Position numbers and translations under genes: made by a program
Notes under the pieces: generated by a model
The model's input: only the letters and a program-made list of their open reading frames with translations
Database searches by the model: none
Told to the model about the DNA's origin: nothing
Shown here: positions 6,034 to 58,583 of the stretch, one piece after another
Position numbering within the stretch: position 1 is the first letter of the stretch
Layout of the letters: every line of letters starts with the position of its first letter
Assembly: GCA_031277535.1 (NCBI GenBank)
Contig: JAITMD010000021.1
Location: forward strand, 124,001-188,000
From: Flavobacteriaceae bacterium
Lineage (GTDB): Bacteria > Bacteroidota > Bacteroidia > Flavobacteriales > Flavobacteriaceae
Direction of reading: 5' to 3'
Length of the DNA: 64,000 bases

Positions 6034-6796
6034 TTTTATTTTTATCGTACACTTTAGAAATACAAATATACTAAAATAGGAGTGGAAGTTTATCGTATTA
6101 ATATAATGTTCGTGCTAAAAAAAGTAGTTTGTTTTTTTATAGATTTGAAGGCAGACAATTGTTTTGTGAAAAAGAATCTTTCTGATTTCGATTTAGTGCA
6201 TAGGATGTTTAAAAATTCTTAATTTATTTGAATAGTGAAATAAGTAAATAAATGGAGTGTTTTTTGTCAAGAAAGTTTGAGTGTTTTAGGGTGTTATTTA
6301 CCTTTTTGTTATTTGTGTGTAAAAATAGCTTTTTTGACTTGTTTTTGAGCGTAAAATTTGCTTCAATCCCTTTTGATTACTGAGTTTTTAGTGGTTTTGT
6401 TTTGCCGTTCTTCGGGAGTTGTTCGGAGATTGTTCCAAAAATAGGGGTGTTTTCCGAAGCGTTTCCGAAGAAACCTCGATCAATACCGCATAAAAACTGG
6501 TCTGAGGAGTGATTTTTGATGTTTAAAAATCAGGAAATATCAAAATTGAAAAAGGTGTAAAAATGGTATTTTTTACTTTTTTTGATAGTGTGTCTAAAAG
6601 CTTTGATTAGTGAATAAAAAAATGAAACAAAGCTTCGTTTTAGAGTTTAATACGATACAAATATACAAAAAAATAACCGTTTAATTGACAGGAAATTATG
6701 AATATAAAAGGGATAGTGGATTGCTATGCAAGAGAGGAGGGGATGCTTTCGAAAGTTTTCTAAAGCATTAATTATGAAATAAAATAAAATTAGTTG

Positions 6797-19969: not shown

Positions 19970-20500
19970 ATGAAGATAATAGGATTTGCAGCAAGTACAT
20001 CAAGTAGCTCTATTAATAAGAAATTAGTTGAGTATAGTGCTTCATTTTTAACAGAAGGTGAGGTCGAAGTCATTGATCTAAATGATTATAAAGTACCTAC
20101 TTTCTCAGTAGATGAGGAGAAAAATGGTTTTCCTGATGGAGCAAAGCGTTTCTTAGAGAAGATAAAAGAGTCTGATGCTATTATTTGCTCTATGTCTGAA
20201 CACAATCGCAATTGGACAGCTGCATTTAAAAGTTTGTTTGATTGGTGCTCTCGTATAGAGTTAAAGTTATTTCAAGAAAAATCAATGTTTGTCATGTCAA
20301 CTTCTCCTGGAGGGTATGGAGGACAAAATTCACTGAATATCGCTAAGACAGTATTTCCAGCTTTTGGAGGACAGATTAAAGATACTTTTGCACTACCTAA
20401 GTTTTACGAAAACTTTGATGAGGTGAATGGTATCATTAACACAAAGCTTGACGAAGAACTAAAAGAAAAACTAAAGAAGTTTAGAAGTGAACTTCACTAA
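19970..20500 (+). CDS. NADPH-dependent FMN reductase
   Basis: GFAASTSSSSINKKLVEY; SMSEHNRNWTAAFKSLFDW. Confidence 0.88.
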   Translation: MKIIGFAASTSSSSINKKLVEYSASFLTEGEVEVIDLNDYKVPTFSVDEEKNGFPDGAKRFLEKIKESDAIICSMSEHNRNWTAAFKSLFDWCSRIELKLFQEKSMFVMSTSPGGYGGQNSLNIAKTVFPAFGGQIKDTFALPKFYENFDEVNGIINTKLDEELKEKLKKFRSELH

Positions 20501-20562: not shown

Positions 20563-20814
20563 TTTTTATAGCGATTAAACTCCTTTTTGCAGCTATTAAA
20601 ATGACTATGAGAAGTCTTTTTTTGCTGATTACTACTTTATTTCCCTTTTGTAAAGCTAAATTTTAAAAAAAATACTACTTTTTTTGAGTCAACTAAATGA
20701 TTTTTATATCATAAGTAGTTGTTTTTTAGTTGTTTGAGTGTTTTTTATTTATTTCGGTTACATTTTTAGACAGGCTATCACCTCAGTATTTACCGTACTT
20801 ATGCGTGAATTGTT

Positions 20815-20916
20815 CGACAATTGTAGGACAATACGTCGAGTTTAGTGCAGTAGAGAAGGTGTTTGTCCAAGGATTGTCCTTTTACTGTCCTCGTATTGTC
20901 CTTCTATTGTCCTCTA
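20815..20916. repeat. 11-bp-phased (A)TTGTCC/GGACAA motif array in opposing orientation
   Basis: CGACAATTGTA GGACAATACGT then TTTGTCCAAGG ATTGTCCTTTT ACTGTCCTCGT ATTGTCCTTCT ATTGTCCTCTA. Confidence 0.8.
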
Positions 20917-21159: not shown

Positions 21160-22857
21160 ATGAGAAAGATTTTCTTCTTATTTACCTTGCTATTTTGCAC
21201 AATCACTTTTGCACAAAAGAGTGATACTACTTTGCCTGATACAGAACACTTGATTAGAGTTTGGGGCTTAGTAAAATACAAACATCCCAATGTAAGTAGA
21301 GGTGGTTATGATATGGATCAAGAGTTTCTGAAAGCTTATACTAATGTTCAAAAGCTGAATACAAAAGAGGAGCTAAATACTTTTTTAATACAGTGGATTA
21401 AGCAGTTTGACTCTTCTAAACGTGTTGTAAAAAAAGAAGAGTTTAAAGGCAATGAAGATAAGCGATTTAAAGGCAATGCAAGGTTTGAATGGATAGATGA
21501 TGATAGTTATAATGCGGAGCTAAAGGGGATTTTAACTGCACTAAGAGACAATGCGAATGTAGGAGAGTATTACTTAGGGCTTCATAGTATAAGTGGTTTT
21601 TTAAAGATAGAAAATGAAAGAGCTTTACCTGACTTTAGCAATGAGAATGAAAGCCATCGTGTGCTATTTTTATCTTCGTTTTGGAATACCATGCGTTATG
21701 CTAATGTGAATATATATTTGACATCTACTCCTTGGGATGAGGTATTGACTACTTTTATTCCATTGGTAAAAGATAAAAAAGGAAAGGATTTTGAATATTT
21801 AAAAGATGAATTGTCTGCTGCTTTAAATGACTCTCATAGTGATTATACAACAAGTAAGTATATAATTGATAATTCTAAGTATTATCCTGTATTTAGAAGT
21901 GAATTAGTAAACGATTCTTTAGTTATTACTTCTTTACAAGATAAGGATATTGCTCAAAAAGAAAATATAGCTTTAAGAGACGTTATTTTTAGTATAGATG
22001 ACGTGTCTGTGAAAGAGTATATTGCTAATAAGTTTACGAAATATATGAGTTGCTCTACCCCATCTTATTTAAAACATTATTTAAAGTATCTTTTTCCTCT
22101 TGTAAACGATAAACAGAAGTTGGCATTAGGAATAAAGAAGGTTAATGGAGATATAATTAAAACGGAGGTAAGCTTATTTGCCTTAGAAGAGTTAGGTAAG
22201 TTGAATAATTGGGCGTTTTTGTCTAAGGAAGATAAGTTTCCTATCATTCCTCAAGGTATTGGCTATTACAATTTAGATAAAGCAACACCTAAGAGTGTAA
22301 AAGAAATATTTAAGAACTTTGCTGATAAGAAAGCAATTATCTTAGACTTGAGAAATTATCCAAGGGGAATTAGTGAAAGTGATGTACCTAAGTATTTATT
22401 GCCTGAAAAGCGTAGGTTTTTAGACTTATTAGAGTGGAGTAGTCCTGCTTATGGAGAGTGGGGACAAAAAGGGGCCATAACAATGGTAGCAGACCCATTT
22501 GTGACTGGCAATAAGAATAAAAATTATTACAAGGGAACCGTAATACTATTAGTAGATCATAATACAGCAAGTAAGTCTGAGTTTATGGCTATGGCTATAC
22601 AACAAGCACCTCATTGTGTAACGATAGGTAATCAAACTTCAGGTGCGGTAATGAATAGAATGCCAGTTATTGTAAAAGATGGCACTAGAATAGACTTTAC
22701 CAGTGGAGGAGCTTTTTACCCAAATGACAGAGCATATAGTGTACAACGCAATGGGATAAAGATAGATCACATCGTGCCAGAGCAGGCTACAGGTTATAAC
22801 AGTTATAGTGTGATACAGTATGCTGTGGATTGGGCAAAGGAGAATGTTTTAAAGTAA
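21160..22857 (+). CDS. S41 family (C-terminal processing type) peptidase, secreted
   Basis: 565 aa; signal peptide; KAIILDLRNYPRG...VILLVDHNTASKSEFMAMAIQQAPHCVTIGNQTSG. Confidence 0.88.
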   Translation: MRKIFFLFTLLFCTITFAQKSDTTLPDTEHLIRVWGLVKYKHPNVSRGGYDMDQEFLKAYTNVQKLNTKEELNTFLIQWIKQFDSSKRVVKKEEFKGNEDKRFKGNARFEWIDDDSYNAELKGILTALRDNANVGEYYLGLHSISGFLKIENERALPDFSNENESHRVLFLSSFWNTMRYANVNIYLTSTPWDEVLTTFIPLVKDKKGKDFEYLKDELSAALNDSHSDYTTSKYIIDNSKYYPVFRSELVNDSLVITSLQDKDIAQKENIALRDVIFSIDDVSVKEYIANKFTKYMSCSTPSYLKHYLKYLFPLVNDKQKLALGIKKVNGDIIKTEVSLFALEELGKLNNWAFLSKEDKFPIIPQGIGYYNLDKATPKSVKEIFKNFADKKAIILDLRNYPRGISESDVPKYLLPEKRRFLDLLEWSSPAYGEWGQKGAITMVADPFVTGNKNKNYYKGTVILLVDHNTASKSEFMAMAIQQAPHCVTIGNQTSGAVMNRMPVIVKDGTRIDFTSGGAFYPNDRAYSVQRNGIKIDHIVPEQATGYNSYSVIQYAVDWAKENVLK

Positions 22858-38675: not shown

Positions 38676-38743
38676 TTCTGTACAATATATTAATTTAATT
38701 CCAGAGCAACATACACGGACTTCGCCAGAGGTTGGTCTAAAAG
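38676..38743 (-). promoter_or_regulatory. Candidate L19 mRNA leader
   Basis: TATATTTG -7 element at 38750-38757 (minus) followed by GC-richer leader GACCAACCTCTGGCGAAGTCCGTGTATGTTGCTCTGG before rplS. Confidence 0.5.
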
Positions 38744-47567: not shown

Positions 47568-47608
47568 AATCTACCTGATAGGTTTATACATTAGTATTTC
47601 TATTGTTA

Positions 47609-47654
47609 GTAGACGTCATCAGCGCTTAGGCGGTTCAAGGCAGACATCATTGCC
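47609..47654 (-). ncRNA. Fluoride riboswitch (crcB RNA motif)
   Basis: Minus strand GGCAATGATGTCTGCCTTGAACCGCCTAAGCGCTGATGACGTCTAC, matching the crcB consensus GGnnAUGnnGUnnnCC...AAnCGCC...GCUGAUGACGnCUAC. Confidence 0.9.
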
Positions 47655-47677
47655 ATAAATATATAGTGCAAAGATAT

Positions 47678-57925: not shown

Positions 57926-58158
57926 TTAGCAATATCTTCTCTTTTGCCTTTCTTTCTTCCTTCCCAAACAATACATTAATATCTGTAATGAAAAACTACT
58001 GAAGCACTTGTTTTATAGTAGTGGGATGGTGTAACATCAAGACTAATACAAATTTTTTAAGTGTTTTTTACCTCTATTGTGTTTTTGTCAATGAGAGAGG
58101 ACTTTGTTGTTTCTTTAATTTTGATAGGGGTTTAGAGGAGAATACTGGGAGTATAAGA

Positions 58159-58227
58159 GGACAATTGTTCGACAAATAACCTTTTTTCCCAACTAAACTC
58201 GAGGTATTGTCCACGCATTGTCGAATG
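58159..58227. repeat. 11-bp-phased GGACAA/ATTGTCC motif pairs (second copy of the element at 20.8 kb)
   Basis: GGACAATTGTT CGACAAATAAC ... ATTGTCCACGC ATTGTCGAATG. Confidence 0.75.
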
Positions 58228-58583
58228 AACTTAGAAGAAACCTTGATTTATATAGCTTCAAGAGCAGTTGTAGTTGATGTGGAAAATAAAAAGAATTTCA
58301 TAATGTACTGATATTTAGATAGGTGTTTTTTTTAGGCTTAAAAAAAAGGTGGTGTTTTTTTTGAAAATAAGGTGGTTTATGTACTTATTTGAAGTAAAGA
58401 AGAAAAAAAGTGAAGTATTTATTCATATTTAGGTTCCTAAATATAGCAATATTGAATGATTTTGAAAATAACGTACTACTTTTTTTGTGAGGAGTATTTG
58501 TGATTTCTATAAATCAGTATGGATTGATTCTTACAGTTTGATTCTTAAAACCTTAACAGGAAGAAGTGAATGATTTTTTATTC

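Follow-up and report, generated by a model that had tools for sequence, protein, structure and literature searches.

The intergenic region described here lies on a 64,000-nucleotide stretch of genomic DNA (hereafter the window), between an NAD(P)H-dependent FMN reductase-like gene and an S41-type peptidase-like gene, and carries two opposed runs of short words, GGACAA on the left and TTGTCC on the right, phased at 11 bp. Coordinates below are those of the window, and R1 denotes a sequence-only model of the 125-bp core of the element, built from 15 copies that align over 125 columns with zero gaps.

19970-20500, plus strand: left neighbour, NAD(P)H-dependent FMN reductase-like gene, which also adjoins the orthologous element in relative G138
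20665-20685, plus strand: A8-N6-T7 motif of the AT-rich upstream portion of the element, similarly placed in most copies
20778-20902, plus strand: focal copy of the 125-bp core of the dispersed element (R1 match 20780-20902, 93.3 bits, E=1e-27)
20781-20798, plus strand: CCTCAGTATTTACCGTAC, which has diverged from the conserved box TCCCAGTAAAATcGGGacTT found to the left of the arrays
20810-20853, plus strand: left array of four 11-bp units, TTGTTCGACAA TTGTAGGACAA TACGTCGAGTT TAGTGCAGTAG, in GGACAA orientation, with the same register in all copies
20854-20864, plus strand: central unit or core, AGAAGGTGTTT, between the opposed arrays
20862-20916, plus strand: right array of five 11-bp units in TTGTCC orientation (lag-11 score 31/44)
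21160-22857, plus strand: right neighbour, S41-type peptidase-like gene

The array is genuine, stands at exactly the stated position and is not a product of chance. The five consecutive right-half units at 20862-20916 (TTTGTCCAAGG ATTGTCCTTTT ACTGTCCTCGT ATTGTCCTTCT ATTGTCCTCTA) read exactly as the first-pass annotation had given them; on the left, the opposed units CGACAATTGTA and GGACAATACGT from 20815 are also present, while the weaker unit that it placed just before them is merely a diverged relative. Lag-11 self-identity in the best 44 bp of the intergenic region was 31/44, whereas 2000 dinucleotide shuffles averaged 21.1 and never exceeded 28, and the region ranks first at this lag in the 64-kb window. 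TGTCC words at distance 11 form a single five-member chain in the window, and forward TGTCC words up to 60 bp apart were found there at no distances except multiples of 11. The number of units changes in whole 11-bp steps, from three to six on the right, with five in the focal copy, four in the usual case, six in one copy and three in another. The 69-aa open reading frame across the array is probably non-coding, as previously proposed: the 11-bp register is kept without frame conservation, which argues against coding. The conserved element exceeds the earlier description, comprising the 125-bp core and, upstream of it, ~235 bp of AT-rich sequence with A8-N6-T8 motifs.

The paired word TTGTCCN5TTGTCC occurs 18 times in the genome and the same pattern read backwards does not occur at all (0 matches), so the absence of genome-wide enrichment, which had been named as the outcome that would speak against a dispersed family rather than chance, was not what we found. 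These 18 matches amount to ~16 loci, and similarity among them extends well beyond the two words. R1 matched the 3.77-Mb genome at ~44 places; they are intergenic and keep the 11-bp register, and 23 have E<1e-12. Its weaker matches represent a second subfamily that carries the word TTCAAGAA/ATTGTTGAAG in an unchanged register, and the corresponding word pattern has 17 matches in the genome vs 0 for the control; the repeated word varies between subfamilies and species. Two other regions of the window had been credited with the same architecture, and two further arrays were indeed found, the one at ~6407-6478 being unmatched by R1:

58136-58257, minus strand: second copy, of the focal subfamily (R1 E=2.9e-27)
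6407-6478, minus strand: third array, with inward-facing 11-bp architecture and the word TTCGGAG (TTGTTCGGAGA / TTTCCGAAG), placed by eye and autocorrelation

Genes adjoining element copies have no evident common function or orientation, and a role as promoter element of the downstream genes was rejected, as the neighbours point in all directions. Element matches of identical score lie at two contig ends in G000 (C7:12-101 and C15:337066-337155), where a copy of the element has probably interrupted the assembly.

Extending the search to relatives, as had been recommended, gave array matches in 12 of 400 genomes of the genus, including 37 and 42 R1 matches in two complete relatives. A 15-base pattern scan of genome contigs returned mostly chance matches and was informative only for a Myroides odoratimimus contig, which holds one match (L126, E=4.6e-18), so that a Myroides-like species is the likeliest source of the window; GTDB places Myroides inside Flavobacterium. 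Words differ per species, and the core and the 11-bp register persist across copies and species, in agreement with the earlier reading of the phasing as about one helical turn. A word-free lag scan of 400 kb in each of two relatives also gave a lag-11 excess, with further words such as GAGTCCGTAGT. Another 11-bp family was seen in G138, in which GAGTCCGTAGT repeats surround a hairpin-like AACGGACT centre and which occurs three times in the 400 kb sampled (L270, L276 and L281).

Synteny across two to four species was seen at several element loci (the focal copy occupies the same locus in G138, and copy L141 the same locus in G138, G173 and G313), and most loci differ between species. Across nine orthologous pairs, gap events numbered 18 per 695 aligned bp in the array vs 148 per 1759 bp upstream, and the ungapped identity of orthologous arrays was 0.66 in register and 0.27-0.36 when shifted by 1-3 bp. 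Array identity was 0.74 and 0.71 within genomes, 0.675 between genomes for non-orthologous copies and 0.65-0.72 for orthologous pairs. Spacing in orthologous arrays is kept far better than in the flanks, yet similarity is no higher than between arrays at unrelated loci. As read from these alignments, the pattern is one of concerted evolution under spacing constraint, with the spacing conserved and the word changing in concert. A trans-acting protein that coevolves with the arrays accounts for this pattern, and gene conversion between copies is a possible alternative.

In the focal genome three copies, and in G020 one, are followed after ~200 bp by a gene encoding PF19781 (DUF6266). Wherever an R1 match was seen to adjoin a DUF6266 gene, it precedes the gene in the same orientation, at ~230-430 bp from the domain match. 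DUF6266 is present in 12/12 array genomes of the genus vs 2/19 others (Fisher p=6e-7, ignoring shared ancestry), a co-occurrence that may partly reflect one clade; the two other DUF6266 genomes carry, directly before their own DUF6266 genes, 10/11-bp arrays whose words are unrelated. In the genus sample, lag-11 z-scores above 3 were obtained for 15/29 regions upstream of DUF6266, 1/29 downstream regions and 15/280 noncoding controls. A class-wide sample of 19 further DUF6266 genes, drawn largely from other genera and families, gave upstream z>3 in 10/19 cases at lag 11 and in 0-3/19 at lags 7-10 and 12-14, with words such as GCTAACTATAT (six times), TTTGACTCTTC and AAATCCAACTC. At the z>3 threshold, a lag-11 array is undetectable at roughly half of the DUF6266 genes, and the majority of solo arrays lie a long way from the nearest DUF6266 gene. 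Each of the words GGACAA, TTCAA, GGGGTAT and TTCGG was found upstream of a DUF6266 gene in the focal genome, where every recognised array word is matched by a DUF6266 gene with the same upstream word, and in G313 the TTCAA word is again accompanied by its DUF6266 clade. Because other-word 11-bp arrays stand upstream of many DUF6266 genes across Bacteroidia, the linkage suggests an undescribed protein-DNA system, and our literature search returned no paper on DUF6266 (PF19781) or on the repeat. Tandem arrays of two spacings lie upstream of DUF6266 at L317/L176 (G018), with GGATATACAAN repeated five times at 11 bp and TGGCAATCCG eight times at 10 bp.

The AlphaFold model of DUF6266 (mean pLDDT 83.5) has a basic beta part at its N terminus, two helices, and a C-terminal domain that resembles fibronectin III. 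A fold search with this model gave no significant match (best E=1.2e-3), the best PDB matches being FN3 domains, and no classical DNA-binding, catalytic or transposase-like fold was seen in it. The N-terminal part has a weak sequence match to ribosomal eL27 (E=0.028), a possible similarity that is only a lead. Neither DUF6266 nor the element had a match in the phage and plasmid collections, and an origin from phages or plasmids was rejected on this ground. DUF6266 loci (L306, L310, L313, L327, L344, L348 and L351) often encode a 65-75-aa protein with a YPKDIQ..TGRS..Y motif and no Pfam family; several of these loci also carry DUF5675, and others a DUF6943 or HTH_17 gene. The small YPKD-type, HTH-like protein was rejected as the binder, being missing from G020, G173, G313 and other array-rich genomes, and HTH_17 (MerR-like) genes adjoin arrays at only a few DUF6266 loci.

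The array is probably a platform of double-stranded DNA on which an oligomerising protein binds, and it is part of a dispersed noncoding repeat family that includes array+DUF6266 units. The putative protein would bind one 11-bp unit per helical turn in a sequence-specific manner, with the bound subunits aligned on one DNA face, and would form head-to-tail oligomers that grow inward from each end to the central core. We infer this binding and oligomerisation, and a joint action with DUF6266, which may bind the array or be controlled through it. The family is a multicopy noncoding repeat of ~420 bp, spread intergenically in a Myroides-like genome and its relatives, whose full-length unit consists of the AT-rich A/T-dyad region, the 11-bp array, ~200 bp and the DUF6266 gene; such units would be the master copies, with many solo arrays lacking the gene. 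Same-face binding by an oligomer is plausible, since CarH and BldC show that such binding exists: CarH operators are exact tandem 11-bp direct repeats bound by winged-helix domains (PMC9304148), and BldC oligomerises head to tail on direct repeats whose number varies, its subunits lying about one DNA turn apart at long sites (PMC5859096). The effect in the cell may be local control, chromosome architecture or self-propagation. More tentatively, DUF6266 and helically phased 11-bp arrays could constitute an undescribed DNA-protein system found throughout Bacteroidia, with a word of its own for each paralogue, array and protein specificity changing together, and arrays multiplied to dozens of chromosomal sites in the Myroides lineage.

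The main rival is a selfish mobile repeat, in which the arrays would be transposon-like ends or internal parts mobilised by a putative recombinase, DUF6266 units the full-length elements, solo arrays their MITE-like derivatives, and the register a consequence of transposase binding. We regard this as somewhat unlikely and keep it in this position because the DUF6266 pattern in G313 and G173 looks like that of a self-amplifying unit. G313 has 19 DUF6266 matches, many of them homologous at 70-93% identity from about -600 to the stop codon; the shared ~600 bp upstream include the array, and similarity is gone within a few bases past the stop codon. G173 holds decayed DUF6266 copies with stop codons and fragments, a duplicated segment with a GNAT gene and the element ends at the array end, and the turnover of element loci between species also fits. 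However, the ends of the duplicated units, read by eye, showed no recognisable terminal inverted repeats or target duplications, no empty site was found, the DUF6266 model has no transposase-like fold and DUF6266 was not found in the phage and plasmid collections searched. Moreover, several copies that two to four species share at one locus preserve their array spacing, which is unexpected for decaying MITEs. A mobile repeat and a binding platform are compatible and not mutually exclusive. The GNAT acetyltransferase gene in question is duplicated together with the element at L137/L147 (G000 C16, C1), where homology stops at the array end and the second GNAT copy has a large internal gene deletion with the array intact.

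Ordinary regulon operators, that is, tandem sites of a known type of 11-bp direct-repeat regulator (an OmpR/PhoB-type response regulator or a MerR/BldC/CarH-type winged helix), appear improbable. Known regulators do bind direct repeats at about this spacing, as in CarH at 11 bp (PMC9304148) and in BldC (PMC5859096), and a few DUF6266 loci place MerR-like genes beside arrays, but the adjoining genes share no evident function or orientation, the gap-free 125-bp block with its ~235 bp upstream far exceeds the size of an operator, and several words coexist per genome, all changing in concert. Scattered sites of chromosome organisation, for nucleoid occlusion or anchoring, would be expected to avoid the terminus, and gaps of ~1.0 and 1.35 Mb free of strong matches do include the GC-skew estimate of the terminus in G138 C1 and G173 C1; in G138, however, the terminus lies at the gap edge and the gap is only weakly unusual by a rough estimate, and the focal word is present in merely 12/400 genomes of the genus, which leaves this explanation quite improbable. 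A first impression of symmetric chromosome placement failed after origin and terminus were positioned by GC skew, and inspection of the G138 matches gave no obvious strand bias relative to replication. Very unlikely indeed is a structured RNA or hairpin family, including a terminator. The focal RNA folds better than its shuffles (z=-3.5) and the opposed words can pair, but ten other copies fold differently, most with z from -0.1 to -2.2 and one at -3.6, so that folding the 11 copies and counting pairs gave no common fold. The covariation analysis proposed in the first-pass annotation for this case detected none for the helix between left and right arrays (65.1% paired observed vs 65.7% shuffled), shuffled sequences being exceeded on none of five measures. 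There was no Rfam match at the element, and an RNA would leave the gap-free 11-bp register unexplained.

No named element had been recognised in the array, and none was found in this follow-up either. The ParR/parC plasmid centromere has 11-bp repeats that flank the par promoter in R1 (the plasmid, not our model), in two clusters around a core. The array has two such clusters around a core as well, but ParR/parC is one site per plasmid with parMR, whereas here there are ~40 chromosomal sites and no adjoining par genes were seen. Interspersed elements of the MITE/ERIC type are imperfectly palindromic intergenic repeats of ~125-420 bp, a likeness in location, size and symmetry that was drawn by description for ERIC; unlike them, the array has a constrained register, and inspection by eye revealed neither terminal inverted repeats nor target duplications. 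CRISPR arrays have 20-50 bp repeats, unique spacers and cas genes, and this candidate was rejected since the unit here is 11 bp and the neighbours are a reductase and a peptidase.

Among the regulators, CarH shares with the arrays tandem 11-bp direct repeats of about one helical turn, but has three or four repeats at one promoter, in one orientation and with one fixed word, is not dispersed and has no DUF6266 (PMC9304148). BldC repeats are 9 bp and AT-rich, and RdfS, which forms winged-HTH filaments on DNA, has sites without consensus (PMC11963761); neither has an inverted two-sided platform. REP/BIME sequences with their RAYT (TnpA_REP) genes, the 'REPtrons' (PMC8266576, PMC2817692), resemble the array family in their tens of intergenic copies, their inverted arrangement, a subfamily sequence that tracks the linked gene family, and the occurrence of both solo and gene-adjoining copies, the latter two being found here with DUF6266 members that track the repeat subfamily. 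In contrast, a REP is a palindrome of 20-40 nt with GTAG and a conserved hairpin, and its linked gene encodes a HuH tyrosine nuclease (RAYT), whereas the array has 11-bp-phased units, no common fold in 11 copies and a linked gene for DUF6266, which is predicted to be FN3-like. The 125-bp core consensus contains no short palindrome-plus-GTAG arrangement. The array system works like a REPtron genome-wide and lacks the GTAG hairpin and the linked HuH Y1 gene that define membership.

If the binding-platform reading holds, DUF6266, a family of wholly unknown function, would gain a directly testable DNA partner, and the arrays would provide a natural series of binding sites of fixed spacing, with a word that varies by paralogue and species, for studying the evolution of DNA recognition. 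It would also add a kind of interspersed repeat that has no link to a known transposase and supply a concrete hypothesis to account for many of the large gaps between genes in Myroides and its relatives. Elsewhere in the window, the Rfam scan returned only two matches, both above gathering scores: a fluoride riboswitch (crcB motif) at 47603-47663 and an L19 ribosomal leader at 38707-38734, both on the minus strand.
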